Shown here: piece after piece, positions 286-62,949 of the stretch
How positions within the stretch are numbered: the stretch's first letter is position 1
How the letters are laid out: each line of letters begins with the position of its first letter
Assembly (NCBI GenBank): GCA_017549805.1
Contig: JAFYNJ010000002.1
Span: forward strand, 1 to 64,000
Length of the DNA: 64,000 nucleotides
Reading direction: 5' to 3'
Source of the DNA: Bacteroidales bacterium
Lineage (GTDB): Bacteria > Bacteroidota > Bacteroidia > Bacteroidales > F082
The notes under the pieces: model-generated
The model's database searches: none
Seen by the model: only the letters and a program-made list of their open reading frames with translations
What the model was told of the DNA's origin: nothing
Program-made: the position numbers and the translations under genes

Positions 286-654
286 GTGAAAAGGGGCTGC
301 AAACTCGTTATCGGGCTTGCGGTGTTACTGGCTCTTTGCTCCTGCGGCTCGGAGCCAGTGACACCGACCTTCGATGAGGCACTCCTCATCGGGGAATGGA
401 TCGAGAACACCGTGCACGAGAAATACCTCCCCGAAGGCCTGGGCACCACGTGGGATACGGCCGACGACGTCGCAGAAGAAGAAGCCGACACTTTCAACTG
501 GAGCTTCGACGGCAGCCGCCTCATCCAAGAACACCACATGGTTGTAGGCGTGGTGCCAAGGATCCTCACCGTGACGAAACTCGACCTCGAAAACCTCGTG
601 TATGAGGACTCAGGCGGCGTCCCACATCATTTCTTCCGAAACGACACATTATGA
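286..654 (+). CDS. Putative small lipoprotein
   Basis: A 122-residue protein that starts with GTG directly after the stop of the preceding gene. The N-terminus MKRGCKLV plus a hydrophobic core ending in LCSC looks like a lipoprotein signal, with Cys20 as the probable lipidation site. The remaining sequence (LIGEWIENTVH near residue 35, then SFDGSRLI and LENLVYED) resembles small lipocalin-like Bacteroidales lipoproteins, which have a 'GxW' opening strand followed by short beta strands. That fold assignment is inference. Its stop overlaps the ATG of the AsmA-like gene (ATGA), indicating translational coupling. No later in-frame ATG would keep the signal sequence, which supports the GTG start. 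Confidence 0.65.
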   Translation: MKRGCKLVIGLAVLLALCSCGSEPVTPTFDEALLIGEWIENTVHEKYLPEGLGTTWDTADDVAEEEADTFNWSFDGSRLIQEHHMVVGVVPRILTVTKLDLENLVYEDSGGVPHHFFRNDTL

Positions 655-3600: not shown

Positions 3601-3728
3601 ACCAGCTGGAACCGTGCAAATACCCCAACCTCTACCGTCCTGAGCGCCGCAACGACACCGAGCAGATGGTGATGCAACTAAAGAAGAAGATTGGCGAGGA
3701 ACTCCGAAAAAGCGTGAGGGAGAATTGA
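651..3728 (+). CDS. AsmA-like envelope protein
   Basis: A 1025-residue protein with one N-terminal membrane helix (about residues 6-29) and a very long periplasmic part made of short repeated beta strands ('LDLNLxxxxLxLxDLxxFLP', 'ADAKIKLQSKLDDL', 'NGRADAKI'). This is the organisation of the AsmA/YhdP-TamB superfamily, thought to bridge inner and outer membrane and to affect outer-membrane lipid and protein homeostasis. The C-terminal part (about residues 830-1010, including DGAAEFHIAAQTNLKSNYDLKM) matches the AsmA-like C-terminal region. The length is typical for Bacteroidota copies. It is translationally coupled to the upstream lipoprotein gene. Its TGA stop lies at the start of a 7-bp repeat array that fills the junction with the convergent tdk gene. 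Confidence 0.85.
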   Translation: MKKALKITGITLASLVGVILVLATIAIALVTSPKRLTSMVKRYVPQYVDFDLQLQRANLTLFKTFPDIGLELDQVAILSPMEGAPSDTLASIDKLTLSADAKKFLKEREIIVKKLLLEDAFVNIFTDAEGHSNLDIFSSDSTKTDTTKAEFDYSVALEEVSLKNSTVMYNDLRSKLHAGITGLNTDIQGTMHDQDIQAVLGLKAQGVMLQTEGLAGVIQQLNLGFNGDLKDYNHLHGQLQLDSPDLTLNAGYQVLHHDALHLNLPVTMDLDPLNASLAMASIGLNDYQIALDGNVIASDTNSYDLDLAFATNTLDIEDLMHYLPENVTKNLNGMDFQGKAALTDGKITGCFNDSTMPLITAKVNATEATIGIPNLPFPFKETNLSALMSIDLNDSINAKDIQLSTKLNRSTIEANGDITDLSGKMDLDMNLKSNLYLTDLKSFLPKNMKLNGRADAKIKLQSKLDDLMKAVNTLQFNTKTKADANITLNGFDFAMDTIHAASPTLKLNLGIPAKQRKGVHLGLTTSTLNATVGPKIRADLSDVNIEANADRLDKIESALADAALKLGHLNLVYDTIRCDATNPTITLATLPKSNKSLNLSASLKSGQLNAKAGSGYQLVTQSLAVAASARQNKSKDPSDFLNHWNPTADFVLNNAQLTVANLDEKVIIPTIDFQFDDKGLDFKKGGVKLGKSDLNLKGQVTGLKEWTADKKNLMKANLAVHSNYLDLNEIMELTSGLGVERDSTVVEDSNTEGDPFMVPEGVDFDFKVTANKALYRNFEFNNLGGNATVKDGTLLLREIGFTNEAAQMQLTAMYQSPRKNHLFLSMDFHLLDVQIYDLIHMIPEIDTIVPMLKTFDGAAEFHIAAQTNLKSNYDLKMSTFRAAADIEAANLQVRDIASFTKITDMLKVSTNGLYKIDSLDIQMTAFKNEVDLWPFQIAIGKYKATLDGHYNLNTVGEYHISVTQSPLPTRLGLKISGPLNNLSYQLEPCKYPNLYRPERRNDTEQMVMQLKKKIGEELRKSVREN

Positions 3729-3768
3729 GAGGTGAAAGGTGAGAGGTGAGAGGTGAAAGGTTAAGGGT
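3727..3768. repeat. Heptamer array (GAGAGGT/GAAAGGT)
   Basis: Six 7-bp units in a row (GAGAGGT, GAAAGGT, GAGAGGT, GAGAGGT, GAAAGGT, TAAGGGT). The array fills the convergent junction and contains the last bases of the AsmA-like stop codon as well as the stop codon of tdk (3761-3763). Confidence 0.85.
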
Positions 3769-4412: not shown

Positions 4413-5438
4413 ATGAACGACAAATTCAATGAGCAAAAAGATACGCTGGTTTCTTTGAAACACGAAATCAGCCTGTTACAACAACAAGTCGATTTCCTCC
4501 TTAGAAACGGGAAGCCGCTTGGCCTCCTCGACTTGGATGTCATGATGAACCGTACGCACAGCATCTATGATCAGCTTTGTTCCATCGACATCAGCGACAT
4601 GCCTTGGGAGGAGGAGACAGAAGACGGAAGTCAGGAGTCGGAAGAAGGAAGTCAGAAGACGGAAGACCTTCCTTTGGAGCCCGAGGAAGAGGTAGCAATC
4701 AAGACGCTTTTCGGGATTGAGGAGGAGCCCAATATCGAGCCCGAGGAGCCTGTTGCCGAACTGGAGGAAGAACCGAAGGAAGAACCCATCGTTGAACCGG
4801 AAGAGGATCCTGTTATCGAACCGGAGGAAAAACCAGAGGAAGAACCGGAGAATGAACCCGTCAACGTTGTTGGAAGCGTTGAAGAGGCCGTCCAGTCCGA
4901 TCCAAACGATTTCGGCTTTATCCTGAACTTTGAGCCTGTGGGAGAACAGGATCAGAAGACTCCCGTTTATACTACCGGTGATGAGATTGAGATGACCATT
5001 CCACAGTTCCAGAACACCAACGAAGCAACGGAAGAAGAAACGAAAGAGACTGAGGAGGAAATCCCCTACGAGCCTGTGATCATCGGCGACATGGAAGAGA
5101 AAGACGATTCCGGCTTTGAGCTGGACCAACCCGAGACTATCGGCGATCGGCTCCAGCAACAGGAAGACCACAGCCTGGCGGCGAAATTACAGCATGAGGC
5201 CGCTGTCAACGACCTTCGTACTGCCATTGGCATCAACGACAAGTTCCTGTTGGTGAACGAGCTCTTCAGTGGCAGCATGGAGAAATACAACAAATCCATC
5301 GAGAACCTTAACGACCTCAAGACCCTGAACGGCGCGCTCATCTATATGAACGAGCTGCGCATCGAGCTGCAATGGAACAGCAGCAACGAGGCCTACCGCA
5401 AACTGCTCGAATTGGTACACCGTAAGTTTGAAGCGTGA
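4413..5438 (+). CDS. Acidic Glu/Pro-rich cytoplasmic protein, conserved ends
   Basis: A 341-residue protein with no signal peptide or membrane segment. The N-terminus (residues 1-65) is predicted helical, with a coiled-coil start (TLVSLKHEISLLQQQVDFLL). Residues 65-150 are extremely acidic, with EEEP/EPEE repeats. The C-terminus (about 250-341, with DLRTAIGINDKFLLVNELF and ending LVHRKFEA) matches a conserved Bacteroidota domain of unknown function whose hallmark is 'DLRxAIGINDKFxxxNELF'. Residues 68-86 are translated from a 7-bp repeat array. It is the first gene of an operon with rsmI (stop and start overlap by one base) and the OstA-like gene. I know of no demonstrated function. Confidence 0.8.
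   Translation: MNDKFNEQKDTLVSLKHEISLLQQQVDFLLRNGKPLGLLDLDVMMNRTHSIYDQLCSIDISDMPWEEETEDGSQESEEGSQKTEDLPLEPEEEVAIKTLFGIEEEPNIEPEEPVAELEEEPKEEPIVEPEEDPVIEPEEKPEEEPENEPVNVVGSVEEAVQSDPNDFGFILNFEPVGEQDQKTPVYTTGDEIEMTIPQFQNTNEATEEETKETEEEIPYEPVIIGDMEEKDDSGFELDQPETIGDRLQQQEDHSLAAKLQHEAAVNDLRTAIGINDKFLLVNELFSGSMEKYNKSIENLNDLKTLNGALIYMNELRIELQWNSSNEAYRKLLELVHRKFEA
4614..4668. repeat. Heptamer array inside coding sequence (ACGGAAG/TCAGAAG)
   Basis: Seven units with a strict 7-bp period (ACAGAAG, ACGGAAG, TCAGGAG, TCGGAAG, AAGGAAG, TCAGAAG, ACGGAAG). It is read in frame in the acidic protein as Glu, Asp, Gly, Ser, Gln and Lys residues. Confidence 0.8.
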
Positions 5439-8289: not shown

Positions 8290-8292
8290 AAA

Positions 8293-8523
8293 ACACGGGA
8301 TCGGGCATCCGCCTTTGGCGGATGCTAGCTATATAGCTATCATCCCCTACCGGGGATGAGGACGGTTATGGGAAACACGGGATTGGGCATCCGCTTTTAG
8401 CGGATGCTAGCTAAATAGCTATCATCCCCTACCGGGGATGGGGACGGTTATTGGAAACATGGGATTGGGCATCCGCCTTTGGCGGATGCTAGCTATATAG
8501 CTATCATCCCCTCGGGGATGAGG
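8293..8523. repeat. Three tandem 82-bp REP/BIME-like units
   Basis: Units start at about 8293, 8375 and 8457, with an 82-bp period. Each carries two palindromes: GCATCCGCC-TTT-GGCGGATGC followed by TAGCTATATAGCTA, and CATCCCC-TAC-CGGGGATG. The third unit is slightly shortened and runs into the 3' end of cvpA. This pair-of-hairpins layout beside a Y1 transposase is typical of REP/BIME clusters. Confidence 0.85.
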
Positions 8524-9037
8524 ATTGATTATCTGGAGTGGCATTCTGTACCGCCTCCTTGACGATGTCGAACCCTTGATAAACGTATGGTACCGCCTGC
8601 TCCACATAGGGATAGAGCAACGACTCCTGTTTGGTATCTTCTTTGACAATCCCTTTATGGTTCAGGACATTGAGCAGCATCACCAGCAGGCTGCAGATGA
8701 GCAACCCCTTAGCAAGACCAATCAGAAAGCCTCCCAGTTTATCAATAAAACCTAAATTGATCGCCTTCACCAACTTCGCCACCAGCCGTCCCAACAGATT
8801 CACCAGCACTGACAAAACAATAAAGGTGACGATAAACGAGATCAGATGGAGGTACTTCGGGTCAATCTCAACATACTCCACCAACTTATTTGCCGTGAAG
8901 TCGCTGAAATGAAATGCCCCATACAGCCCCAGACCGAGACCCAGCAAGGTGGTCAACTCAATGATGATGCCCTTGCGCCAGCCTCCAATGCCAAAGCCTA
9001 TCAACAATAAAGCAATGATGATGTCCAGATAGTTCAT
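8504..9037 (-). CDS. CvpA family inner-membrane protein
   Basis: A 177-residue integral membrane protein with four predicted helices (about residues 4-22, 29-46, 63-90 and 100-125), starting MNYLDIIIALLLIGFGIGGW. This is the CvpA/colicin V production family signature, with conserved GWRKGIIIELTTLLGL. The family is linked to envelope stress tolerance and colicin V export in E. coli; the role here is unknown. The last residues (SSSPRG and stop) are encoded by the REP repeat that abuts the gene, so the native C-terminus was probably altered by repeat insertion. The M64 peptidase gene ends one base upstream of its ATG, so the two are likely co-transcribed. Confidence 0.85.
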   Translation of the reverse strand: MNYLDIIIALLLIGFGIGGWRKGIIIELTTLLGLGLGLYGAFHFSDFTANKLVEYVEIDPKYLHLISFIVTFIVLSVLVNLLGRLVAKLVKAINLGFIDKLGGFLIGLAKGLLICSLLVMLLNVLNHKGIVKEDTKQESLLYPYVEQAVPYVYQGFDIVKEAVQNATPDNQSSSPRG

Positions 9038-34598: not shown

Positions 34599-34626
34599 CA
34601 TCGCCATGGAAGGTTTGTCAAGAGGA

Positions 34627-40773: not shown

Positions 40774-42552
40774 TTATTCAGTTGTGCATACATACATGAG
40801 ACATTTCTTGCAGTCAAACTCCAAACGGAAGATGTTTTCCCCATTGCGGATATACAACGGCCCGACGGGTTTGCCCGTGATTTTAGGGCATAGGCCGTTG
40901 GCATACCGGATGCAGTGGTGACAGGTCATGAGAGGTGAGAGGTGAGAGGTGAGAGGCGAAAGGTGTTCCTGGCGGGGTCTTTCATTATTAACCTTTAACC
41001 TTTCACCTTTCACCTTTAACCTCTCCAGAAGTCCCCGTTTCATCTCTCCAATCACTGAGGCGGGAATCAGATAAGGCTGGCTAAAGCGCAGTTCCAAACT
41101 GACGGGATGATAGATGGTGTCACCCCATTGGAGGGCTTTCTTACGGATGTTTTCGAGAGCCTTCTCGGGGTTGGTAGCGGGAATTTTGGGAGTGGCAACC
41201 GTCATTGCGAGGCCTTTGGCCGAAGCAATCCAACCTGAACTGGTTTCGTTTGAGTCTGGTTGGATTGCTTCGTCACTTCGTTCCTCGCAATGACGCAAAG
41301 CGATTAACCTATATCCTTCCGGGACATCTTCCAACACCAATTTAATATCAATCTTTCTATTCCCCGTAGAGGCTTCCACCTGGCGTTGCCATTCAATATC
41401 GTAGTTACGATAGATTTTATAGCCACGCTGTGCGCCGTGGGGACGATTGCACGATACCTTATTACCATGAACCACATCTGCCCTGATTCCTATCAGCTCG
41501 TCATTCTTATCCATGAAACACAAGCCGTCGCCGTTGTGCAAAGTCTTATCTGTGAGGATCTCCATCTGTACCGAGTTGCACCATTTCACTTCGCCGATGT
41601 ACTCCCCCATCGACTTGGGCGTGAAAGGCGAGCCTATGTTAGGCTGGCGACCATGGATGAAATAGTCGGTGAAGCCGCGATTGAACGACTTCTCGGGATT
41701 CACCTCAAAGCTATAGCTACAATGGCCTAACGAGGCTTGAGCAAAGTCCGGCCGCCGTGCAAAGATGGCATCCAGTTGCTGACGGTAATAGGCCGTCACG
41801 TTCTTCACGTAATCCGCCTCTTTCAAGCGACCCTCGATCTTGAAACTGGTGATGCCGGCATCCATCAGTTCCTCCAGATGGGCGCTGTTGTTTAGGTCTT
41901 TCAGGCAAAGCAGATGTCGTCCTTTAATCAACACCTTGCCGTCAGCATCCAACAGGTCCCATGGCAACCGGCAAGGCTGGGCACAAGCACCGCGATTGGC
42001 AGAACGGTTGCCGATGTACTGACTCAGATAGCATTGTCCGCTATGGCTGACACACAACGAGCCATGCACGAAAAACTCCAGCGGAACGGTAGTCTGGCTG
42101 CGGATCTCCTTGATTTGCTCGATGCTTAGCTCACGACCCAGCACTACCTGCTCAAAGCCCAGCTGTTCCAATTCTTTTACCCGATCAACAGTGAGGTTGT
42201 CGCATTGGGTGCTGGCATGCAAGGAAATAGGCGGCAAGTCGAGCTGGAGCAAGGACAAGTCCTGAATGATCAAAGCATCCACACCGGCATTCCAGCAATC
42301 CCACGCAATCTTACGGGCCTGCTCCTTTTCGTTGTCATACAGCAAGGTGTTTAAGGTGACATACACCTTGGCATCAAACAAAGCCGCATGACGGCATAGC
42401 TTTTCGATATCCTCTATGCTGTTGCCCGCCTTCTCACGGGCACCAAAGGCCGGTCCGCCGATATAGACGGCGTCCGCGCCATGGTTGATGGCAGCCAAAC
42501 CGACCTCAAGATTCTTGGCCGGCGAAAGAAGCTCTATCGGAATTGATTTCAT
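40774..42552 (-). CDS. U32 family peptidase with two repeat insertions
   Basis: A 592-residue protein of the U32 (collagenase-like) family, whose members include RlhA and UbiU and which take part in rRNA hydroxylation or ubiquinone synthesis. Core blocks are ELLSPAKNLEVGLAAINHGADAVYIGG, LGRELSIEQIKEI, FVHGSLCVSHSGQCYLSQY and GACAQPCRLPWDLLD, with Cys that can hold an iron-sulfur cluster. Two insertions break the C-terminal domain: residues 420-451 come from a 96-bp palindromic element (LRHCEERSDEAIQ), and residues about 509-542 from heptamer arrays (LKVKGERLKV and HLSPLTSHLSPL). Both keep the frame. The rest (DCKKCLMYVCTTE at the end) looks intact, so the protein may still work. Confidence 0.9.
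   Translation of the reverse strand: MKSIPIELLSPAKNLEVGLAAINHGADAVYIGGPAFGAREKAGNSIEDIEKLCRHAALFDAKVYVTLNTLLYDNEKEQARKIAWDCWNAGVDALIIQDLSLLQLDLPPISLHASTQCDNLTVDRVKELEQLGFEQVVLGRELSIEQIKEIRSQTTVPLEFFVHGSLCVSHSGQCYLSQYIGNRSANRGACAQPCRLPWDLLDADGKVLIKGRHLLCLKDLNNSAHLEELMDAGITSFKIEGRLKEADYVKNVTAYYRQQLDAIFARRPDFAQASLGHCSYSFEVNPEKSFNRGFTDYFIHGRQPNIGSPFTPKSMGEYIGEVKWCNSVQMEILTDKTLHNGDGLCFMDKNDELIGIRADVVHGNKVSCNRPHGAQRGYKIYRNYDIEWQRQVEASTGNRKIDIKLVLEDVPEGYRLIALRHCEERSDEAIQPDSNETSSGWIASAKGLAMTVATPKIPATNPEKALENIRKKALQWGDTIYHPVSLELRFSQPYLIPASVIGEMKRGLLERLKVKGERLKVNNERPRQEHLSPLTSHLSPLMTCHHCIRYANGLCPKITGKPVGPLYIRNGENIFRLEFDCKKCLMYVCTTE
40930..40964. repeat. Heptamer array (GAGAGGT) inside the U32 gene
   Basis: Five units (GAGAGGT x3, GAGAGGC, GAAAGGT), read on the coding strand as HLSPLTSHLSPL. 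It is separated by 16 bases from the complementary-type array at 40981-41022, giving an inverted pair that could form a hairpin. Confidence 0.85.
40981..41022. repeat. Heptamer array (TTAACCT/TTCACCT) inside the U32 gene
   Basis: Six units (TTCATTA, TTAACCT, TTAACCT, TTCACCT, TTCACCT, TTAACCT), translated in frame as LKVKGERLKVN. It is inverted relative to the array at 40930-40964. Confidence 0.85.
41200..41295. repeat. Palindromic 96-bp element inserted in the U32 gene
   Basis: Begins CGTCATTGCGAGG and ends CTCGCAATGACG with inner arms GAAGCAATCCA / TGGATTGCTTC: the same family as 6113-6206 in rsmI. It is read in frame as LRHCEERSDEAIQ, then a WIASAKGLAMT segment. Confidence 0.9.
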
Positions 42553-42593: not shown

Positions 42594-43985
42594 ATGAAAA
42601 GCCGCATTCCTCTCATATTATCTATTCTGACCGCCATCCTTCTCTTTGCGCCCATGCTTCAGGAGCACTTGCATCTCTTCAAGTTCAATCCATTGGCTGG
42701 TGTGGTGGAAGAGAAGCCCATGCCTAAGATGACGCTTAGAAACTGGCAGAATCGTACCATTCAAACCAGCGCCGAGTCTTATTTGAAACATCATTGCGGC
42801 TTTCGGGAACCCTTGACGCGCCTTTACAACCAGTATTTGTGGGATTGCTACCACACCTCGCCACAGTTTCGAAAAGGCCAGCTGATGCTCAATGATGACG
42901 GATGGCTGTTTGAAAGCGGCAATGTAGAGGAATACTATGTGGGAAACGCCTTGCATTATGCCAATGACTCGCTCGGCATAGCCCAGAAATTCGGCGAGGA
43001 GGCGTTTCGCATCTATCAGCTCCAACACATCCTTGAGCCTTACGGAGTGCATCTGTTGGTCATGTTGGAACCGGGCAAAGAGCTCATCTGTCCCGAGCAT
43101 TTGCCCGAAAACACAAGATTCAAGGGAGAGAAAAAAATCACGGCTTACGAGTTTTATCGGCAACGGTTCGAACAGCTGGGCATCAATTGTTTCGATGTAG
43201 GACAATGGTTTCTCCAGCTTAAGGATGTTGTGGATTATCCCTTGTATCCGCAAACGGGAACGCACTGGAGCAACATCGCTTCCATGCATGTAGCCGACAG
43301 CCTGATCCATTACCTGGAACAGCTTGGCAACCAACGCATCAGGCATTTTTCCATCGGAGAGCCCTACGAGAAAACCGTGTATCCCGATGACGACTTGGAA
43401 CAGCTGCTCAACTTGATCAGGCCATTGAAAAAAACGCCAAATTACTTTGCGCAGGTATGCCTTGAAGCGGATTCAAGCGCCTACCGGCCCAAGCTGATCA
43501 CCATTGGCGACTCCTACTATTGGAACCTGCTCAACAACACGCCTTTCCATGTGGTTTTCAGCGGAAGACCCTATTGGTATTACTATAGCACCGCCTATTA
43601 CACGGGTGATCATCGCAACGTCAGTGAGATCGACGTGTTGGACGAAGTGCTATCAGCCGATTTTGTGATGTTGGCTTATAGCACCCAACAACTCTATAAG
43701 ATGAGCAACGGTTTCACCCAAGACCTGTTGATTCGCCTTTGCTGCGACGAAAAGGACATCGAGGCGGGAAAACAGGCGGCGTTACGTCATATCCAAAACA
43801 GTCCGAAATGGCTGGAAAGCATCGAAAAAAGAGCGGAACTCTACAAGTTTCCCATTGATACGGTCATCCTGAAGGAGGCCGAGAACATCTTCCGCACCAA
43901 CCCACACAACTACCTGCCTGCACTCAAGGACAGCATACCAACCCCACGTTCCACCAAAGCACAACAATATGGTATTCAGCAGTAA
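42594..43985 (+). CDS. AlgX/AlgJ-like SGNH protein 1
   Basis: A 463-residue exported protein (ATG 42594; MKSRIPLILSILTAILLFAPML is a signal anchor). It belongs to the AlgX/AlgJ/DHHW group that works with MBOAT acyltransferases to O-acetylate extracellular polysaccharides. The signature YPQTGTHWSN carries His224, and the likely nucleophile is Ser307 in IGDSYYWN. The Asp usually preceding the THW motif (DxHW) is replaced by Gly. GERIPLxRLYN-type N-terminal features (HHCGFREPLTRLYNQYLWD) match the other two copies in the cluster. It overlaps MBOAT1 by 17 bp. The chemical group and polymer are unknown. Confidence 0.82.
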   Translation: MKSRIPLILSILTAILLFAPMLQEHLHLFKFNPLAGVVEEKPMPKMTLRNWQNRTIQTSAESYLKHHCGFREPLTRLYNQYLWDCYHTSPQFRKGQLMLNDDGWLFESGNVEEYYVGNALHYANDSLGIAQKFGEEAFRIYQLQHILEPYGVHLLVMLEPGKELICPEHLPENTRFKGEKKITAYEFYRQRFEQLGINCFDVGQWFLQLKDVVDYPLYPQTGTHWSNIASMHVADSLIHYLEQLGNQRIRHFSIGEPYEKTVYPDDDLEQLLNLIRPLKKTPNYFAQVCLEADSSAYRPKLITIGDSYYWNLLNNTPFHVVFSGRPYWYYYSTAYYTGDHRNVSEIDVLDEVLSADFVMLAYSTQQLYKMSNGFTQDLLIRLCCDEKDIEAGKQAALRHIQNSPKWLESIEKRAELYKFPIDTVILKEAENIFRTNPHNYLPALKDSIPTPRSTKAQQYGIQQ

Positions 43986-45399
43986 CGTCTTTCTCCTCTA
44001 CTTCATGCCGGTTTTCTTCCTGCTGTATTTCATCATGCCGAAGAAAGGCCGCAATTATGTGCTCTTGTTTGCCTCTTTGTTATTCTACGCATGGGGAGCT
44101 CCGGAATTCATCATACAGCTTATTGTGTCTGTCATTGCCACTTTCTACTTGGTCAGGTGGATGCATCGCACCGACAAACCAAAACTGAAGAAATGGCTTT
44201 GCGGCATTTCCATCTTCATCCCCATCGGGTTGCTGCTATTCTACAAATACGGCAACTTCACCATGGAAAACCTCAACTTTGCGAGGGAATTCTTTGGCAA
44301 GGCGCCTTACGAATGGAAACGGATTTTGTTGCCAATCGGCATCAGCTTTTTCTCATTTCAAAGTGTCACCTACACGCTCGATACCTACCGTGGCGTCAAC
44401 AAACCCATGGAGCGGTTAAGTGACTTCATGCTCTACATCACCATGTTCCCTCAGCTTATTGCCGGTCCCATTGTGCGTTACTGCGATGTGGCCGACCAGA
44501 TTCGCAACCGTGAATCGAGCTATGCCAACCGTCTGCAAGGTTTTTACCGTTTTGTGATCGGTTTGTGCAAAAAGGTTTTGATTGCAGATGTCATCGGAGC
44601 CCAAGTGGATGCCGTATTGAACGCAGCTGATTTTGCCACCACTCTCACCACCTTGAACACAGGAACGGCTTGGTTGGTCGCTTTAGCCTATACTTTCCAG
44701 ATCTATTTCGACTTCGCAGGCTATTCCGACATGGCCATCGGCTTGGGCCGTATCATGGGCTTCAAGTTCCCTGAAAATTTCGACAACCCCTATACTTCAC
44801 ACTCCATTACTGAATTCTGGCGCCGTTGGCATAAGACGTTGGGAGCCTTCATTTTGAATTACCTCTACATCCCCTTGGGCGGCAATCGCAAGGGCAAAGG
44901 CCGGATGTATCTCAACTTATGGGTTTGCTTTCTGCTTTCCGGATTGTGGCATGGCGCTTCGTGGAATTTCGTGGTTTGGGGTGCGTTACACGGGTTCTTC
45001 ATCTGCCTTGACAAACTCTTGAACAGAAAACGGAAGTTTTTCTATTCTCCGTTCTCCGTTCTCCTCACCTTCATTATCGTGAACCTACTTTGGGTGTTTT
45101 TCCGCATTGAGAACATCTCTGAAGCCTGGACTTTCATCACGCGCATGTTCGCTTTTGACTTTGCAACACCTTATGTTGATGTCAATCTTCAATTCTATGT
45201 CACTTTGGCGGTTGCAGCCGTCTTCTCCTTCATTACCTTGTTCCCCTTCGGGAAGAAGCTTCAAGAAAAGGTCTATTACACCGACTACTCCAACAAAGGC
45301 CACATCATTGTTTGGATTGTTGCCATTGTGCTGTTCATATTTAGTTTGGCAGCCCTCAATGCCTCTGGTTTCAGTCCGTTCATCTACTTTAGGTTTTAA
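43969..45399 (+). CDS. MBOAT O-acyltransferase 1 (AlgI-like)
   Basis: A 476-residue polytopic membrane protein of the membrane-bound O-acyltransferase family, AlgI/DltB type. It carries acyl groups across the membrane to surface glycans. Conserved motifs are SFFSFQSVTYTLDTYRG, PQLIAGPIVRY, FDFAGYSDMAIGLGRIMGF, FWRRWHKTL with His288, and LSGLWHGASWNF with the second active-site His328. It starts MVFSSNVFLLYFMPVFFLLYF and ends FSPFIYFRF, as do the other two copies. A short 7-bp array at 45040-45067 lies within it. It is the second gene of the surface operon. Confidence 0.93.
   Translation: MVFSSNVFLLYFMPVFFLLYFIMPKKGRNYVLLFASLLFYAWGAPEFIIQLIVSVIATFYLVRWMHRTDKPKLKKWLCGISIFIPIGLLLFYKYGNFTMENLNFAREFFGKAPYEWKRILLPIGISFFSFQSVTYTLDTYRGVNKPMERLSDFMLYITMFPQLIAGPIVRYCDVADQIRNRESSYANRLQGFYRFVIGLCKKVLIADVIGAQVDAVLNAADFATTLTTLNTGTAWLVALAYTFQIYFDFAGYSDMAIGLGRIMGFKFPENFDNPYTSHSITEFWRRWHKTLGAFILNYLYIPLGGNRKGKGRMYLNLWVCFLLSGLWHGASWNFVVWGALHGFFICLDKLLNRKRKFFYSPFSVLLTFIIVNLLWVFFRIENISEAWTFITRMFAFDFATPYVDVNLQFYVTLAVAAVFSFITLFPFGKKLQEKVYYTDYSNKGHIIVWIVAIVLFIFSLAALNASGFSPFIYFRF
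45040..45067. repeat. Short heptamer array (CTCCGTT) inside MBOAT1
   Basis: TTCTATT, CTCCGTT, CTCCGTT, CTCCTCA with a 7-bp period, encoding FYSPFSVLL. MBOAT2 and MBOAT3 have different bases here, so this copy may be chance or a young array. Confidence 0.5.
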
Positions 45400-50976: not shown

Positions 50977-52980
50977 CTACGGCATCAGCACATCATGCTG
51001 CACCACAAAACGACTGACCAGCTCGAAATCGTCCAATTCCACCTTGTATTGCTGAAATAGCTTATCATTGTCGATGGCATAGCCAATGATAAAAGGATCC
51101 AATTTGATCAGGGTGTTCCTGCTGATGTAATAATTGTCGCTCAGGTAATCGACCACATCGCGGTTGTTACGCATGAAAGCCAGCTTCCGGGTGTTTCTGT
51201 AGTCGGCCACGGTGTCGAACGAAGTGCCCAGCCAATGGCAATGGTCGTCAATGGCATAATCATAATTGGTGTGGAGATAAGCGTTGACCGAAGGCGTGAC
51301 ATCGAGATGCGAGACCACCGCCTCCATGGTCTTGGACTGTTTCACCAACGGTGAATAAACAATCAACGGGACGTTGTAATAACGCAAACCGACACCTGGA
51401 ATTACCGGCGCCATGCGGTGATCCCCCGTGATCACAAAAACCGTATTGTCAAAATCAGGGCGGGAAGCATAATAGTCGAACAACTGCTTGATGCTTTGAT
51501 CCAGGTAAAGGAAGCAGGCATAGATGTTGAGGTTTTTCATCACGTTGTCGCGTTCCTTTTCCGACAAGGCGAGGGTTTGCTCCAACATCGACAGCACTTG
51601 CTGTTCGTATGTCTCTATCCCATCTACCACAAAAGGTTCGTGGGTGGTCAAGGTCAGATAGATGTCAGCATGGGGCCGTTGCTCATCTACAGTTTTTTTA
51701 TGCTGGATGGCGCAATCAAACAGTTGGTCGTCGTCCAAGCCCCAGCGATAGTTTTCCGCCAAAAGCTTATAATGCGCGGAATCGTCCACCACCAGATTGG
51801 GCTCGAAAAGATAATCCACATGGTTTTCACGCATGAACACGTCATAATGGTCGAAGTTCACGTCACCGCCATAATAAAAGGATGTGGTGAAGCCGTTACG
51901 CTCCATATCGAGCATCAGGGAATGGTGTCGCGGCATGGGCAGATTCCAAGTAAAGCCATGCCTGCCGTGCGGCGCAGAAGCAAATAACGAAGGAAGCACC
52001 CCGAAAGTACGTTCAGAGGTGGAGAAACAATTGGGCCAAAACAAGCCTTCGGAAGCCAAACTGTCGAGGAAAGGCGTAAACGACAACATGGGATGGGTGA
52101 CACCTGTCAAACGACGACCCAAACTCTCCACTACGATAAAGACCAGATTGGGCGGCAAGCCGTCGGAAGTGGGATTAAGAAATGACCCTAACACATCGGG
52201 ATCATTGGCTTGGCGGTAAAAAGGATAGCCCGGATGGTCGTAGTTGAATTCAGGATGTAGGGCTTGATAGGCTTCCACTGCTTCGGCCGAGTAGGGATAG
52301 CTGTCGCCTTCGGCGTTGCGCTTCATCTCTTTCCGATAATCATTGATCTTGATCCAGGCGTATGACGGCTGGTTGACGGCAAGACAGAAGTCGTTGTGGT
52401 TGGCATACCGGCTCTCCTTACGGATCATGTTAGGATAACGGACGAAGATGGTAACTAAGATGGCGATGCCCACGAAAAAGGCGTTATTCACGTCATTGCG
52501 AGCGAAACAAGCGCCACACAGTAATAAAACCAACACCGGCACTCCCACCAGCAACACGAACCATAACACCTGCACCCACGAGAGCGAAGCCGACGAGAAC
52601 ACTGTTGTCTTGAGCTCTTCGAACGAATAAACCAACACCACATGATCCAAAGGCATGCCGAGATTGCAATAATACTCCGCGAACAAAGCCGAAACCACCA
52701 CATACAAGACTATCAACCCGATGAAGATGCCTCGTGCCGTCCTGGGGAAAAACCAATGGATCAAGAAAAACGGGATCAGTCCGTAAGTCATGACACGGCA
52801 CACCAACAGCAAGTCGAAAAGCCCACCCGATAGTATGGTGAAAAACTGGCTGAAGGCAACATCAAGCCGAAAATGGACCTCCAGGAAAAACCAAAGCCTC
52901 ATGACGATCAGGCACAGTAGCAGCAAAAGGTTCAAACGAACCCATTGCCTCAACCCCTCTATCAACTTGTCTTTATTCAT
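50977..52980 (-). CDS. LTA-synthase-like membrane sulfatase-fold enzyme
   Basis: A 667-residue protein. I use ATG 52980 (MNKDKLIEGLRQW), which overlaps the upstream gene by 8 bp. Five N-terminal membrane helices lie in residues about 13-190. An extracytoplasmic alkaline phosphatase/sulfatase-fold domain follows (about 280-560). Visible metal and active-site features are VFIVVESLGRRL, CFSTSERTFGVLPS with the presumed nucleophilic Thr, YLTLTTHEPFVVD, and VFVITGDHRMAPV. The plan is that of LtaS and of phosphoglycerol/phosphoethanolamine transferases, so it probably transfers a phospho-group to a surface glycan; donor and acceptor are unknown. It is a paralogue of the interrupted gene at 52973-55374. 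Confidence 0.88.
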   Translation of the reverse strand: MNKDKLIEGLRQWVRLNLLLLLCLIVMRLWFFLEVHFRLDVAFSQFFTILSGGLFDLLLVCRVMTYGLIPFFLIHWFFPRTARGIFIGLIVLYVVVSALFAEYYCNLGMPLDHVVLVYSFEELKTTVFSSASLSWVQVLWFVLLVGVPVLVLLLCGACFARNDVNNAFFVGIAILVTIFVRYPNMIRKESRYANHNDFCLAVNQPSYAWIKINDYRKEMKRNAEGDSYPYSAEAVEAYQALHPEFNYDHPGYPFYRQANDPDVLGSFLNPTSDGLPPNLVFIVVESLGRRLTGVTHPMLSFTPFLDSLASEGLFWPNCFSTSERTFGVLPSLFASAPHGRHGFTWNLPMPRHHSLMLDMERNGFTTSFYYGGDVNFDHYDVFMRENHVDYLFEPNLVVDDSAHYKLLAENYRWGLDDDQLFDCAIQHKKTVDEQRPHADIYLTLTTHEPFVVDGIETYEQQVLSMLEQTLALSEKERDNVMKNLNIYACFLYLDQSIKQLFDYYASRPDFDNTVFVITGDHRMAPVIPGVGLRYYNVPLIVYSPLVKQSKTMEAVVSHLDVTPSVNAYLHTNYDYAIDDHCHWLGTSFDTVADYRNTRKLAFMRNNRDVVDYLSDNYYISRNTLIKLDPFIIGYAIDNDKLFQQYKVELDDFELVSRFVVQHDVLMP

Positions 52981-54109
52981 GGACGCCGACAATTTGCAGA
53001 TTGAAATTGGATATCAGGAATTCGATCTGGTCGCCGTTGACGAAATAGCACATCAACTTGTCACCATCGGCATAATGGACCAACGACTTGCTGAGCGACT
53101 GGGTCATCGTGAAATGTTGCCAACGGTCATAATACTCGTACCAGTCGTAATTGACCATCAAGGTCTTGATGACCTCTCGGTTGCCGTCGGGATGATCCAA
53201 GGCATAACCCAAGGTAATCTTCTTGCCGCCATTTTCCTGCCAAGGAATATAAATGTCGAAATTGCAATACACGATGACCGACTCCAAGCTGTCATACACC
53301 GGCTCCATGAACAGGTTGAACGGATACACGTTGTTTAGCTTGAAAGCGTTGGTTTTGTCGAGCGTATCGGCAGGTGACACTTGGGTGTGCAACAAAACAT
53401 AGTTGACCGACTGGGTGCTGTCAACCGACAGCAACAGGCATTGCTTATCCTCATCGAGCAATACCAAGGCATCGTTGTTCATCACATAGTCGTCCATGGC
53501 CTTGTAGTCGCTCATCAACTTGACCACCTTCTCCTCCTCCATCGGCGTAATGGTCAGCCGTTCGTTTTCATAGCCGAACTTGTAGATATTTCCTTCGTCA
53601 TAGAAATAGTCCTTATAGACCATGTTGTCCATCTTGCGGGAGTTTTTCAGCTGGGGTGTGAAGGTGTTGGCACGGAAAGCAGGAGATACATCAAGACCCG
53701 TATTGATCCAGCTGACGATGTTAGGCGCTTTGACGCCATAGCAATTCTTCATCAAAGCCAAGAATGAGGGCGTGATATCACGATGCGCCACCATGGCTGG
53801 AAAACGATGCGGCTCCTTGAGCATGGGCGACCATATCACGAGCGGCACATGGTATTTGTCGAGTTCTTCCGACTGGGCATTAAAACAATGATCGCCCGTG
53901 ATGACGAAGATGGTGTTTTCGTATTCCGGCATGTCGCGGTAAGCCGTAAAGAATTTCCTCAGACAATCGTCAAAGTACAGATAAGAGGCATACATTTCGT
54001 ACTGTGAAGGCTGGATTTCGTCCAACTGGCCGCGCTGTTTCAGCTTGTTGATATAGGTCTGGGTGTATTGCTCCTTGTTGGGATAGTCAAAGGGATCGTG
54101 GGTGGTCAA
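52973..54109 (-). CDS. LTA-synthase-like enzyme, C-terminal part (frameshifted)
   Basis: The 378-residue C-terminal piece of a gene whose N-terminal piece is 54112-55374. It contains the family motifs MTTHDPFDY, VFVITGDHCFNAQ and AHRDITPSFLAL, then a beta-rich C-terminal domain (about 240-378, ending FLISNFNLQIVGVHE) not present in the 50977 paralogue. Its reading frame extends upstream as DIYLTLTTHDPF, exactly the sequence expected to join the N-terminal piece. The break lies at three GGTGAGA units; one more unit or two fewer would restore the frame. On its own this piece lacks the membrane helices and nucleophile, so it is unlikely to function unless read through or switched. Confidence 0.75.
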   Translation of the reverse strand: MTTHDPFDYPNKEQYTQTYINKLKQRGQLDEIQPSQYEMYASYLYFDDCLRKFFTAYRDMPEYENTIFVITGDHCFNAQSEELDKYHVPLVIWSPMLKEPHRFPAMVAHRDITPSFLALMKNCYGVKAPNIVSWINTGLDVSPAFRANTFTPQLKNSRKMDNMVYKDYFYDEGNIYKFGYENERLTITPMEEEKVVKLMSDYKAMDDYVMNNDALVLLDEDKQCLLLSVDSTQSVNYVLLHTQVSPADTLDKTNAFKLNNVYPFNLFMEPVYDSLESVIVYCNFDIYIPWQENGGKKITLGYALDHPDGNREVIKTLMVNYDWYEYYDRWQHFTMTQSLSKSLVHYADGDKLMCYFVNGDQIEFLISNFNLQIVGVHE

Positions 54110-54111
54110 AG

Positions 54112-55374
54112 TCAGGTAGATGTCGAGCGTAGGTGAGAGGTGAGAGGTGAGAGGTTTCTTTTCTCGTTCAAGGATTCGGAAAAGAGGTATTCATCATAGA
54201 GACCCCAGGTGTTTTGCATCTCGGGAGGATAGTTGCTGTGGTCGGGAAGGTAACCCTCCACGCCCAAGTCGTTCAGGAAGTAGCACATGTCGTCGAAACA
54301 AGTCCATCCACCATAGAAGAATGAAGGATAATAGCCGTCGTTCTTTAGGATATCGATCAGGGAATGGAAGCGCGGACAGTTGGATGACTGCATGAAACCC
54401 CGTTTGCCGAAGGGAAGGCTGCCGAACATGGTGGGAAGCACCGCAATGGTTCGCTGCGACGACGACATGCAGTTGAGCCAGCACAAACTCTGGTCGGCCA
54501 AAGAATCCAAGAAAGGCGTGGCTGATGGATATTTGCAGTTGTAACCGCTGAACTCACGGCTCAAGCCTTCGGTGATGACAAACACCAAGTTGGGTTTTTT
54601 ATCAGGATTCAAGTTGAAATAGGGCGATAGAACATCGGGCGATTGGTCCACATGGGCAAAAGGATAGCGGTAATCTACGAAGTCGTCTTCGGGAAACATG
54701 GATTGGAACTCCAGGATGCGTCCTCGCTGTGCTTCCAGATCCTTCGGGTTGAAACGGTTAAACATGGCCTCCTTGTCGAACAGGCTCCTCCAGAAGAATT
54801 CCTGCTTGTTGCACATCACGCCGGACGGCATCTTCCAGCAGCACAATCCAGCAACGGCCAAGCCTAACCACACAAACAATCCCCATCGACCTATTTTCAC
54901 AATATGGCGCGACACCACGAAGAACAAGATGGGAATTCCCAATAAGCACACATAGCTCCACCACACAAAACTGCCCGTGGATTTGGAAATATAGATCAGC
55001 TCCTTGATGGAATAGTCAAAAAACACCTTGTCGAGCGGAATGTAAGCCGAGATGAAATACATGATCATCGCGTTGGATACCAATAACATCAAGGCTCCAA
55101 TGACACGGAATGCCCATTTGGCCACATTCGGCGACCAGCGATGAAGCAAGAGATAAATCGGACAAAGAACCAATGCGAACTTGCTGAAAACAAGGATGTC
55201 GTAGCCAAATCCCTTCAAACACAGCAAAAAGTGCTTTCCAACTTCCTGATGGTAGTAGCCCAACACCACGGCCTCAAACACCCTGACCGCGAAACCGAAC
55301 ACCAACATCCAGAACAGGAAGTTCAGGAAACCCTGAATTCCACCTGTTTGCTTTTTGTCCCTATTGTTTTCCAT
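54112..55374 (-). CDS. LTA-synthase-like enzyme, N-terminal part (frameshifted)
   Basis: A 420-residue piece (ATG 55374, MENNRDKKQTGGIQGFLNFL) with five N-terminal helices (about 18-175) and the first half of the sulfatase-fold domain: LVFVITEGLSREFSG, CMSSSQRTIAVLPTMFGSLP with the nucleophile region, and YYPSFFYGGWTCFDD. It then runs into the repeat LSPLTSHL and stops at RSTST. With one additional 7-bp unit it would continue into the C-terminal part with the same DIYLTLTTHDPF as the 50977 paralogue has in DIYLTLTTHEPF. It is an OFF allele of a phase-variable gene, or a recent pseudogene, or an assembly artefact of repeat number. Confidence 0.8.
   Translation of the reverse strand: MENNRDKKQTGGIQGFLNFLFWMLVFGFAVRVFEAVVLGYYHQEVGKHFLLCLKGFGYDILVFSKFALVLCPIYLLLHRWSPNVAKWAFRVIGALMLLVSNAMIMYFISAYIPLDKVFFDYSIKELIYISKSTGSFVWWSYVCLLGIPILFFVVSRHIVKIGRWGLFVWLGLAVAGLCCWKMPSGVMCNKQEFFWRSLFDKEAMFNRFNPKDLEAQRGRILEFQSMFPEDDFVDYRYPFAHVDQSPDVLSPYFNLNPDKKPNLVFVITEGLSREFSGYNCKYPSATPFLDSLADQSLCWLNCMSSSQRTIAVLPTMFGSLPFGKRGFMQSSNCPRFHSLIDILKNDGYYPSFFYGGWTCFDDMCYFLNDLGVEGYLPDHSNYPPEMQNTWGLYDEYLFSESLNEKRNLSPLTSHLRSTST
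54132..54154. repeat. Heptamer array (GGTGAGA) at the frameshift
   Basis: Exactly three GGTGAGA units (54132-54152) followed by GG. It sits at the junction of the two halves of the LTA-synthase-like gene. The halves are out of frame by an amount corrected by +7 or -14 bases. Confidence 0.9.
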
Positions 55375-55385
55375 GATCAAAGTAT

Positions 55386-56972
55386 TTAGTACAATATATC
55401 CACCTTGGCATTCTCAAAACGGGCATTGCCTTGTTGGTTGTTCCAAAAATAGATACTTAGTTTCTTTCCTTTCATGCTTTTATTGAAAGGACAAAGGATC
55501 TGCTCGTTGAACTCGAAGGTATTCATGTCTGTTGTGTGACAACTTGCAGGCAATTCAATCGACTTCCAAAAGACATTGGGTATAGACAGCACCAGCTGAG
55601 GCAAAGGAGCCGTGGGATCCAAACTGCATACATCAACGGAACCTTTGACGGAAAGGGCAGAATAGCGCTGTTCCAACGGAACATTGACAAAAGTGGCGTA
55701 AACCATGTCGGTTTGAATGGTTCCTTCTGTATTGGATTCACCCGTAAAAACCAAAGGTTCGTCAAACTTGTTGAGGTTCTGGTAAATGAAATAACCGAAA
55801 ACAAAGGCAAAAAACAACCCCAAGGTAACGGCGCAAACGTTACTGATTATACGGGTCAAGCGATTTTCGCGAAGATGGATCCGATCCAACAAGGAAACTA
55901 AGAAGGTGTACAACGGCTTTGCCGCCAAGGCGATACCCCAAACCAGCAAGAAGAATAGCAAGCCTGAGGCCAGATGTCCCCAGGCACTTGTCATCGTATT
56001 GGCCCATTTCAGCACGGGAACCCTGAAATAGCCATGAACGATGAACAGCATCATGGAGATACCGCCGAAATAGTGGAGAACGGAAAGTGGATAACGGAAA
56101 ACTTTTTTCCATTTTCCGTTTTTTGCTTTCCAGGCCTGGGTGACAAACACGGTAATGACACAAAGCGACAGGAAAGTGAATGGATAGAATCCCGGGGCGA
56201 AGTTACCCCAAACAAACAACACCAAGGCCAACAACAACCACAGCCAATGGATTCGCTCGTCCTTGTTGAAAGCCAGCATCATGCCGAAACAGAACTCGGG
56301 CAGATGGCCAGGGGCGTTTTGCATAAGGATGGTACCGTGATGAAGGTTGAGGTATTCGCGGAATAGAAATATCAAGCCGTATGAGACCGCCAACACTACC
56401 AAAAACGCTTTCCAACGCCATTTCTTGATACAGCGGAACAGCAGCGGAAACAACAAGTACAACTGGAAAATCAATCCAAAAAACCACCAAGGACCGTTGA
56501 TGCTCAGCCCAGAATTGGGAATCAGGGTGTGAATGAACAAGAACTTATATCCTATCTCACGCCACTCCCCTTGGTTAAACAACCTTCCGTTCATCACGAG
56601 GCAGCCCAACAAACAAACCACCACTCCAGTAATCAAGAGGGGATAGAGTTTCTTGAGTCGGTTGATCACAAACTCGCCCCACCCCTGCTCACGACGCAAC
56701 ATGGAGAGCGTCAGGCCCAAACCGGAGACCATTACAAAAAGCTGCACGCCATAGTGCCCGAAATAACTGAAAAGGATGTTGACGAACTCGCCAGGCTGCT
56801 GGCCCAACAAATCAAAGAAGTTATGGACCCTGGAGGGAGAAAAGTCGAACTCGTTTTCCCCTGGCGAAGGTGCCAGCCAATGAAAATAGTTGTGAAAGAC
56901 GATGCACAGGATGGCAAAGCCTTTGATGATGTCGGTATCGCGTTTCGTATAACTATTCAATGACAACTTCAT
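55386..56972 (-). CDS. Acyltransferase-3 family protein with C-terminal beta domain
   Basis: A 528-residue protein; ATG 56972 (MKLSLNSYTKRDTDIIKGF), overlapping the GH16-like gene by 20 bp. About ten membrane helices in residues 16-400 carry acyltransferase-3 features (IIKGFAILCIVFHNYFHWL with the conserved His near residue 28, and HYFGGISMMLFIVHGYFRV). This family O-acylates surface sugars. Residues about 410-528 add a beta-rich extracytoplasmic domain ending KLSIYFWNNQQGNARFENAKVDI. A similar C-terminal domain is present in the neighbouring frameshifted LTA-synthase-like gene. It contains an inverted pair of 7-bp arrays at 56075-56132. Confidence 0.85.
   Translation of the reverse strand: MKLSLNSYTKRDTDIIKGFAILCIVFHNYFHWLAPSPGENEFDFSPSRVHNFFDLLGQQPGEFVNILFSYFGHYGVQLFVMVSGLGLTLSMLRREQGWGEFVINRLKKLYPLLITGVVVCLLGCLVMNGRLFNQGEWREIGYKFLFIHTLIPNSGLSINGPWWFFGLIFQLYLLFPLLFRCIKKWRWKAFLVVLAVSYGLIFLFREYLNLHHGTILMQNAPGHLPEFCFGMMLAFNKDERIHWLWLLLALVLFVWGNFAPGFYPFTFLSLCVITVFVTQAWKAKNGKWKKVFRYPLSVLHYFGGISMMLFIVHGYFRVPVLKWANTMTSAWGHLASGLLFFLLVWGIALAAKPLYTFLVSLLDRIHLRENRLTRIISNVCAVTLGLFFAFVFGYFIYQNLNKFDEPLVFTGESNTEGTIQTDMVYATFVNVPLEQRYSALSVKGSVDVCSLDPTAPLPQLVLSIPNVFWKSIELPASCHTTDMNTFEFNEQILCPFNKSMKGKKLSIYFWNNQQGNARFENAKVDILY
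56075..56132. repeat. Inverted heptamer arrays inside the acyltransferase-3 gene
   Basis: GGAGAAC, GGAAAGT, GGATAAC, GGAAAAC followed by ATTTTCC, GTTTTTT, GCTTTCC, all with a 7-bp period. It is read in frame as FRYPLSVL and KNGKWKK. The two halves are opposite in strand, as in the U32 gene. Confidence 0.6.
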
Positions 56973-58830
56973 AGACGCGGCCTTCAATATCGGTTTTGTT
57001 ATAAGGAATCAATCCCTGTTCCCAGACGACAGGCGGCCACCATTCGGAGTAATGGTACTCCTGGGTGACAATACACTTCATCTGGTTGTTGGGAATGCTG
57101 GTGTGCTGGCTATCCATATAGCCCATCACTTCCATGTGGTCAGGATCGGGGCCAAGACGCCAGATGATCGCATCGGGACGCCATTCGATCTCATAAAAGT
57201 ACCATGGCTCCTTGAAATCGCTGTTCGGCATCGGGGTACGGGTAGTCAATGCCTTGTAGTTGGGGTACCATCGCATGGTCTCGAACCGGCGTTTTTTGTC
57301 GTAATCAATGGTATCAAGCCCTCCTTTGAACATCGGAGGTTCAGTGGAAGCCAGGTCCCAGTTGGTGCAGCAATACATCACATCGTTGTTCAAGGTGGCG
57401 TCTTCCTCGCAGTTCTCCCTGTCGCCACGGAACCATTGATAATAACTCCAAGGCCAGTGTTTTGAGGCCTTCACGATCTCGATGTCAATCTCCGAATAAG
57501 GATGGTATGGCGTGCGTTGCGGGTTCTCAGAGTCGTCCCACTTGGGGATGTAGCCGCCGTCTTTAAAACATGGCCGGCGATTGTTCCAAGCTCCTCCATC
57601 GGCATAAATGAGCCAGAAAGCGTATGTCAAGCCGTTCCATAGATTCTCATCGTTGAGCATGACGGGGAACTTGATCTTGCCTCTGAACTTTCCGTATGTG
57701 AAGCCCAGTTTTGAGATGATGCCCGTGGATTCCTTGCGCAGGTTGCCTTCGGTGCTGGCCGGATTGATCAGCGTGATGTATTCTCCGTCGGGACTGGCTT
57801 TCACCGTAGCGCCGGGCGTTTCGCTAACTACAGGATAATCCATCATCAGCTCCGTTGAGTCGAAACGGGTTTTATTGGCTTCGTATTCCTCACGGGTATA
57901 AGGATCATCGCCCACCACATCCTTGATAACCGGGATGTTGCGCAACGTGAATTGACGGCTCACATGGCTGAAAAACTGTTCGAACAGAGGTGCCTTGAGC
58001 ACCGCACGGGTCTTCAGCATCTTACCCGAGGTATAAGTCTTGATGTGCTTGGACGGATGGGTTTCATACCAACCGAAAGGATTCACAAAGACACCATGTT
58101 CATTGGCTTGTCCAATGAATTGGACATAATCGGGAATCTCAGCCAAGCCTTCCTCGTCACAGACCACCAGCATAAAGCCGTATTTCCCTGCTCGGGGATT
58201 GCGTTTCCAACGCTGGTTGTCCGCTTTGCTTAGATCGATTCCATTCATCCATGCTGCATCAATGAGCGTTTGGTCGTCAACACTGATGTGATTGTTCACC
58301 GCCTTCTCAACAATGGAATTGTACCATTGCTTGTCGTTACCGATGTTTTGGACCACCGTGTTGATCTGGGATTTTATGTTGTGGTTTTCAGTCGCGGCAT
58401 TCCCGTAATAAAGCCTTTCGTCCCTCGGGTTACCCACAATGCGAAGCTCGTCCCTGACGATCCTGTTTTCAATGGGCTTGAAGCCGATGTTTACATCTTC
58501 CCAGCTACCATAGAAATTCTCCGCTGCCAGCGCACTGGTATCGGGAAACTTATAACTCTCGTTCTGGTAATAGATCTTGTAATAGAAGCCTTTTTTAGGG
58601 GCAATGAAACGAAATCCGAAAACACCCTCCCCTTCCTTGGTCTGTTTGGCAGATGGGATATAGATGCCATCGGTCACGGCGTTTTCCAAGTCCATATCCA
58701 GACTAACCGTGCGACCGATGCCAAAATTGGTCATCGGACGGAAATGGCAGGTCATGCGTTGGCGGATGAAAAAAACAACTATTGCCAGCAGCAGGACAGA
58801 CAGCAGGAACAAAGGGAAGCGCTTTTTCAT
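56953..58830 (-). CDS. GH16-like glycan hydrolase, secreted or anchored
   Basis: A 625-residue protein with an N-terminal signal anchor (PLFLLSVLLLAIVVFFI). Residues about 100-330 are an unassigned region. Residues about 370-620 match a concanavalin-like glycoside hydrolase family 16 fold: KLGFTYGKFRGKIKFPV, LTYAFWLIY, YSEIDIEIVK, WDLAS and YFYEIEWRPDAIIWRL. The catalytic EIDIE is at 447-451 (nucleophile and acid/base Glu447 and Glu451). GH16 enzymes cleave beta-1,3/1,4-glucans or galactans; here it may trim the surface polymer that the neighbouring enzymes modify. Its stop overlaps the acyltransferase gene and its start overlaps CotH's stop by four bases. Confidence 0.85.
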   Translation of the reverse strand: MKKRFPLFLLSVLLLAIVVFFIRQRMTCHFRPMTNFGIGRTVSLDMDLENAVTDGIYIPSAKQTKEGEGVFGFRFIAPKKGFYYKIYYQNESYKFPDTSALAAENFYGSWEDVNIGFKPIENRIVRDELRIVGNPRDERLYYGNAATENHNIKSQINTVVQNIGNDKQWYNSIVEKAVNNHISVDDQTLIDAAWMNGIDLSKADNQRWKRNPRAGKYGFMLVVCDEEGLAEIPDYVQFIGQANEHGVFVNPFGWYETHPSKHIKTYTSGKMLKTRAVLKAPLFEQFFSHVSRQFTLRNIPVIKDVVGDDPYTREEYEANKTRFDSTELMMDYPVVSETPGATVKASPDGEYITLINPASTEGNLRKESTGIISKLGFTYGKFRGKIKFPVMLNDENLWNGLTYAFWLIYADGGAWNNRRPCFKDGGYIPKWDDSENPQRTPYHPYSEIDIEIVKASKHWPWSYYQWFRGDRENCEEDATLNNDVMYCCTNWDLASTEPPMFKGGLDTIDYDKKRRFETMRWYPNYKALTTRTPMPNSDFKEPWYFYEIEWRPDAIIWRLGPDPDHMEVMGYMDSQHTSIPNNQMKCIVTQEYHYSEWWPPVVWEQGLIPYNKTDIEGRVYEVVIE

Positions 58831-62898: not shown

Positions 62899-62921
62899 TT
62901 AGTTATAATTGATTTGATTGA

Positions 62922-62949
62922 TTAACTTTCATCTTTCACCTTTCACTTT
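62922..62949. repeat. Heptamer array at the M49/S46 junction
   Basis: Four units (TTAACTT, TCATCTT, TCACCTT, TCACTTT). It contains the TGA stop of the M49 peptidase gene (62943-62945). Confidence 0.75.

Follow-up and report, generated by a model that had tools for sequence, protein, structure and literature searches.

Heptamer arrays across a Bacteroidales genome and the frame break in a sulfatase/LtaS-like gene

In the window (the whole stretch of 64,000 nucleotides analysed here, from a Bacteroidales genome referred to as G000), a single minus-strand sulfatase/LtaS-like gene at 52973–55374 is split at three tandem TCTCACC units. The best explanation of this break, to which we assign a probability of about 0.6, is a slippage-prone heptamer system that extends over the whole genome, with this array lacking one unit, be it in the population itself or just in the assembled sequence; we consider this likelier than an evolved switch. 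A tandem heptamer array encodes one protein loop of the enzyme. According to this explanation, such arrays arise and turn over across the genome of this lineage, with period-7 slippage or misalignment as the probable mechanism, and sit between genes and in loops tolerant of extra residues. Within genes, selection would hold the unit number in frame, which would mean four units for the sulfatase gene. The G000 assembly has three units and a frameshift, which would end the product between the counterparts of the nucleophile and of the metal-binding residues, and the missing unit would be an incidental recent contraction or a loss in the consensus, not the OFF state of an evolved switch.

A single gene split at three heptamer units

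The exact period-7 tract at the frame-break point (54131–54155, minus strand) is 25 bases long and reads AGGTGAGAGGTGAGAGGTGAGAGGT, within which three whole GGTGAGA units occupy 54132–54152. On the coding strand, the break consists of AAACC, three TCTCACC units, and then TACGCTCGAC. The minus-strand frame, read from its ATG at 55374 (a TTG at 55380 is given as the start of the listed ORF), stops at 54112, and the other frame, reading DIYLTLTTHDPF, continues to 52973. The first part of the gene (54112–55374, minus strand) encodes 420 aa of a membrane sulfatase/LtaS-like protein and corresponds to positions 1–156 of the Pfam Sulfatase profile PF00884 (40.6 bits); the second part (52973–54109, minus strand), open over 378 aa in a different frame, corresponds to positions 173–299 (44.9 bits). 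Because the PF00884 match passes from the first half into the second, the halves are two parts of one gene. The alternative that they are separate genes was rejected on this continuous match and on the finding that the relatives are single genes. A chance repeat at 54131–54155 was likewise rejected, on the basis of shuffled sequences and of the genome-wide excess of period 7: GGTGAGAGGTGAGA, with at most one mismatch, occurs 7 times in the window as compared with 0 in 100 dinucleotide shuffles. The pattern also recurs elsewhere, with 27 matches across the 2.73-Mb genome, where the reversed control pattern has none. No hairpin partner array was seen by eye at this site. The intact neighbouring gene (50977–52992, minus strand), a paralogous sulfatase/LtaS-like gene, reads DIYLTLTTHEPF and has no heptamer array at the matching loop.

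When the first-part protein was searched against 100 genomes, 31 matched at E ≤ 1e-30; among 99 genomes of the same genus, 10 matched at E ≤ 1e-70, G000 itself included, and these comprise seven orthologs (G000 and six at 68–87% identity) and three others at 38–39%. Named genomes, when scanned, yielded six loci, all from MAGs titled Bacteroidales or Bacteroidia, several with RUG or sheep-reticulum isolate names. All six of the same-genus orthologs are intact (800–827 aa). At the site in question, G000 has three units and is broken, and G033, G054, G105 and G004 have four and are open; the array of G105 is composed of two TTTCACC and two TCTCACC units, and the middle two units of G004 are diverged. 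The frame is also intact in G036, which carries about four units of a different heptamer (the ACTTTCC type), and in G010, which carries no array. The sister species at 86–87% protein identity thus possess exactly one more unit and an open frame, and the length between the matched flanks is 27 bases in G000 as compared with 34 in both G033 and G054. The preliminary description had proposed that a single gene is broken exactly at three GGTGAGA units, which the frames, the split of the PF00884 match and the intact orthologs bear out; its further proposal that one additional 7-bp unit restores the frame agrees with the open frames of the four-unit relatives. The reading frame is accordingly set by the unit number, as in a contingency locus: three units are broken and four are open.

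A contingency locus, in which heptamer slippage reversibly switches the enzyme and the assembly has captured the OFF phase, is nevertheless an unlikely reading. Exactly one unit fewer than in the ON relatives is in its favor, but the arrays have only three or four units, the count is identical in all four relatives with this array, and the diverged middle units of G004 indicate that a perfect slippage tract was not kept there.

The two halves were then compared with their counterparts for selection. The value of w is 0.060 (vs G033) and 0.055 (vs G054) for the first half, and 0.054 and 0.064, respectively, for the second half; dS exceeds 1.2 in these comparisons, which is near saturation and makes w rough. 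Among the changes found only in G000, synonymous ones outnumber nonsynonymous ones by 55:12 (first half) and 44.5:11.5 (second half), much as in the intact sisters. Relaxed selection is absent in either half, and both are under strong purifying selection, with w of about 0.06. It follows that the break is recent, transient, or confined to the assembly, and an old pseudogene was rejected, since both halves keep this low w. Permanent loss of the enzyme in the species of G000 is improbable: the frame is indeed broken in G000, the one genome searched for the species, which gave a single match at E ≤ 1e-70, but the parts remain open over 420 and 378 aa and are both constrained, at the rough w given above. 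The unrelaxed selection also speaks for a contingency locus.

As for the kind of enzyme, the intact ortholog at locus L042 scores 88.2 bits against PF00884, for which the Pfam cut-off is 25 bits, and belongs to this superfamily. Against the NCBIfam LtaS model NF053595 it scores 35.7 bits, as compared with an equivalog cut-off of 970, and it is likewise far under the cut-off of the NCBIfam MdoB model. Among solved structures, VP1736 (3lxq) comes closest (E 7.3e-21), followed by LtaS chains (E 2e-05). The earlier designation as LTA-synthase-like therefore holds at the superfamily level and not for LtaS proper. In L042, the conserved SQRT segment is located at 308, the array-coded residues from 409, THDPF from 429 and GDH at 498. 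By analogy with LtaS, we take the nucleophile to lie before the array and the metal ligands after it; on this analogy, the truncated product should be inactive. The neighborhood contains three MBOAT proteins, three ALGX-domain proteins and one acyltransferase 3, as would be expected for the decoration of a surface polymer, and such surface-modification surroundings count for a contingency locus. The gene codes for a genuine sulfatase/LtaS-like enzyme that is under selection and probably has a surface polymer as its target.

Period-7 arrays in the genome and the genus

Period-7 tandem arrays amount to about 100 per Mb in G000. With an exact tandem array defined as a matching run of at least 11, a 304-kb sample of this genome contained 30 arrays of period 7, none of periods 4, 5, 6, 9 and 10, and 1–3 for each other period up to 13; period 14 accounted for 14 arrays after removal of the plain period-7 ones, and period 15 for 1. 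Elsewhere in the genus, 12 period-7 arrays were found in 78 kb of G033, 5 in 76 kb of G054, and 9 in 220 kb from six further genomes, and the comparison with other families gave 2 in 160 kb of nine genomes. The unit sequences vary (GGTGAGA, AGTTGAG, AACGGAA, AGGAGTT and more), and in 39 of 47 arrays, purines make up 70% or more of the richer strand. The 21-base (GGTGAGA)3 pattern occurs in 9 of the 99 genomes of the genus, and the 14-base pattern in 10 of the 296 genomes of the phylum search, the own genome being included in both counts. Arrays occur both between genes and within protein loops; in the G000 sample, 13 of 33 lie inside ORFs by a longest-ORF rule. In the surroundings of the sulfatase gene, several surface-acylation genes carry arrays in G000 and G033, which counts against the incidental contraction that we prefer: among them are an MBOAT gene (43969–45399, plus strand) with an in-frame array at 45044–45065, and an acyltransferase family 3 gene (55386–56987, minus strand) with a degenerate in-frame array at about 56060–56105.

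A purine-rich array and a pyrimidine-rich array sometimes face each other over a short spacer, as seen in the window (40928–41022), in L066 (15124–15164), in L049 (1024–1086) and in the MBOAT loop of L046. Among the 47 arrays with a length of 18 bases or more, six have an opposed partner within 60 bases, which corresponds to four pairs; these opposed arrays could form hairpins. The pair in the window is composed of two in-frame arrays (40928–40959 and 40988–41022) in a peptidase-U32-like gene (40774–42552, minus strand). Several other repeats were also observed. Long arrays exist in other genomes of the genus: an exact tract of 56 bases in G033 (L083, 1498–1553) and about 80 bases of mixed units in G054 (L097, 1441–1523). 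The ORF at 4413–5438 has an acidic stretch that a degenerate array encodes (4608–4670, GAAGACG/GAAGTCA type), with no aligned counterpart in the G033 and G054 stretches. At 8291–8524, mostly between ORFs, there is an 82-base tandem repeat of 2.9 copies with 91% matches, the consensus of which contains short inverted repeats.

Orthologous sites with aligned flanks, where unequal in length, differ by 7, 7, 7 and 21 bases, in a tally that leaves out the window arrays at 10322, 45044 and 4608 and four arrays of the relatives lacking an ortholog pair. The differences of 7 bases are found at 54130, at 60660 (window vs G033) and at 62920, the last being an intergenic array without assigned strand (62926–62946) that is 7 bases longer in G054; the difference of 21 bases is found at 3720, where the array at the 3′ end of the gene 651–3728 (3730–3761, plus strand) is longer than that of G033. 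At site 60660, the length in G054 is off by 13, which is not a multiple of 7, and the flank is unaligned there. Other sites are constant: the array pair of the U32 gene totals 98 bases in all three species despite different units, the array at 34625 has 38 bases in all three, and the array at 56060 has 46 bases in both the window and G033. In the MBOAT loop, G004 is 21 bases longer than G033 and keeps the frame. Length changes in multiples of 7 are what slippage combined with selection for the frame is expected to leave.

Frame breaks in other genes and the missing unit

A codon-score scan of the fetched loci found 40 arrays in frame. By hand, five genes were found to be broken at a stop-free array: the sulfatase gene, asd and manC, all in G000, cysQ in G054, and tsaB in G035. 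The codon-score rule is blind to breaks in poorly scored genes, and the tsaB break, which went unflagged, came to light by hand. Among the 22 arrays that were scored as having different frames on their two sides, four are such breaks, and seven of the eight others inspected look like gene junctions with stops. Since the rule misses poorly scored genes and 12 of these 22 arrays were inspected, the figure of five breaks in 45 may be too low. The last of the eight, a TCTCACC array in G036 (L153, 2000–2033), has an open downstream frame without a clear junction and is a possible further break.

The asd gene of G000 is broken at an opposed purine/pyrimidine heptamer array (L066, 15117–15165; contig 8, about 275117–275165), and PF02774 matches in G000 only the two parts of one asd gene, which is thus a single copy. 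The nine other genomes searched each have asd open over 342–391 aa, and the loop carries other heptamers or no array: the heptamer is of the ACTCCCC type in G054, ACTCCTC in G033, TCTCAAC in G004, and TCTCACC in G010 and G035. For the frame test of this loop, from which G050 and G136 were left out, the in-frame lengths are 105 (G054), 126 (G033), 111 (G004), 108 (G010) and 99 (G035), and the length in G000 is 119. The manC gene of G000 is broken at a TCTCACC array (L118, 1992–2018), as judged from the G000 sequence alone. The cysQ gene, present in 8 of 10 genomes, is broken at a TCTCACC array in G054 (L135, 2008–2034); in the other seven the loop keeps the frame, and one of them, G035, carries a TAA at another point of the match. 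In the CysQ loop of G033 (L109) and G136 (L113), an in-frame palindrome-like sequence, GTCATTGCGAGG..., occupies the place where other species have heptamer arrays. Finally, tsaB is broken at a TCTCACC array in G035 (L145, 2003–2024) and open in nine other genomes (241–280 aa). The loops were compared by eye, the automatic test having found the end motif in 0 of 10 genomes; the second piece is a weak match to the TsaB model (20.1 bits).

Most bacteria depend on Asd for diaminopimelate and on TsaB for an essential tRNA modification, and both genes are normally essential. The repeats of contingency loci usually concentrate where switching pays and spare essential genes. Such a distribution was not found here: arrays lie in asd, tsaB, cysQ, manC and U32 genes, and some of them are broken. 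The equal lesions in asd, manC, cysQ and tsaB indicate a process that is not aimed at surface genes. Because asd is single-copy and both asd and tsaB are normally essential, a majority OFF state in these genes would hardly be viable, and an array one unit short in these assemblies may therefore be an incidental contraction or a consensus error no less readily than part of a surface switch. As an assembled genome with its only asd broken is difficult to accept as that of a living cell, a deficit of the same kind at the sulfatase gene is, on its own, not good evidence of an OFF state, and the lesions in asd and tsaB thus weigh against a contingency locus. In the phase switch put forward in the preliminary description, the parts that stand are the single gene, broken only at the heptamers, the sisters one unit longer, the unrelaxed selection and the differences in multiples of 7. 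A reversible ON/OFF change finds no such support: all four array-bearing orthologs have four units and are ON, and asd, manC, cysQ and tsaB bear the same lesion. That arrays across the genome switch surface and core metabolic genes together, with an asd OFF state survived through quick reversion or translational re-registering, appears very improbable.

Part of the frame breaks may be consensus errors at the arrays. An assembly artefact at the sulfatase gene, where the population would have four units and the assembler or the consensus would have lost one, perhaps as at asd, overlaps with the explanation we prefer and is a serious possibility, though short of an even chance. A fixed frameshift in asd, the sole copy in G000, should not be viable, which favors this possibility. 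The tract lengths also favor it: all five breaks lie in exact tracts of 22–27 bases, and every one of the 15 listed arrays with 28 or more keeps the frame (P 0.026, for arrays of at least 21 bases), with length classes picked after the data had been seen and with an in-frame list that mixes orthologs of the same gene and loci fetched for having arrays. By reasoning, a longer tract that collapsed at a k-mer of 21 would come out at 21–27 bases. However, the G000 assembly contains exact tracts of 28, 30 and 33 bases, and the 21–27 class is post hoc; moreover, a real loss of one unit predicts these lengths as well.

The breaks in asd and tsaB would also be accounted for if the ribosome or the RNA polymerase re-registered on the repeats, so that genes one unit short gave some product; a heptamer array would, by reasoning, present identical codons in all three frames. 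This is scarcely credible, as indifference to the frame predicts one-third of the arrays in frame, but 40 of the 45 listed arrays are, and no common slippery motif was seen by eye beside the five breaks. The incidental contraction or consensus loss remains our preferred reading, although a contingency locus in its OFF state would likewise appear as a surface gene with a recently contracted array.

Known heptamers and the meaning of the arrays

As described for NeuO of E. coli K1, (AAGACTC)n lies in the coding region of the polysialate O-acetyltransferase with 2–93 units, and switching is reported (PMC3046976); this account shows that a coding heptamer array can switch a surface enzyme, in support of a contingency locus. 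The sulfatase gene resembles it in having a coding heptamer array in a surface-modifying enzyme, with a frame given by the unit number modulo 3. In contrast to the NeuO array as described there, which is at the 5′ end, the sulfatase array is in an internal loop and has 3–4 units, and similar arrays occur in metabolic genes. The heptamers of Xanthomonas and Nostoc (GGGAATC and relatives) are described as genome-wide, with four units preferred and shared sites that vary in length and sequence (PMC4692102). The present arrays are like them in their genome-wide occurrence, the preference for four units and the variation of the same sites between related species. The motif described for Xanthomonas and Nostoc is G-rich and over-represented in non-coding DNA, whereas G000 has many purine-rich units and 13 of 33 arrays in ORFs. 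The TAACTGA direct repeats, reported from Beggiatoaceae, some Cyanobacteria and five Bacteroidetes as abundant and patchy (PMC4679880), are similar as abundant tandem heptamers with a patchy distribution; in that account they are one fixed heptamer, mostly just upstream of start codons in the best-studied genome, whereas the units of G000 vary. In these two accounts, which cite Mrazek and colleagues, the heptamer appears as a favored long unit, with polymerase contact proposed as the reason (PMC4679880, PMC4692102).

Among the open-licence papers listed by literature searches, none on heptamer arrays in rumen Bacteroidales was found. Bacteroidales are better known for inversion switches. The Rickettsia palindromic elements, likewise repetitive DNA, lengthen conserved proteins by in-frame residues. 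They are mobile palindromes, in contrast to the tandem heptamers here, and the CysQ loop of G033 and G136 holds a palindrome-like sequence.

Frame breaks at such arrays in metagenome assemblies, those in asd and tsaB included, are not readable as OFF states without reads. Should the array really slip within a population, a probable surface-polymer enzyme would be under the control of a heptamer-coded switch in a Bacteroidales lineage that has rumen-type MAGs as its named relatives. More generally, this lineage has arrays almost only of period 7 (and 14), which seed loops of conserved enzymes with units that differ between species at the same site, and the reason for the bacterial preference for a repeat length of seven thereby becomes a testable question.
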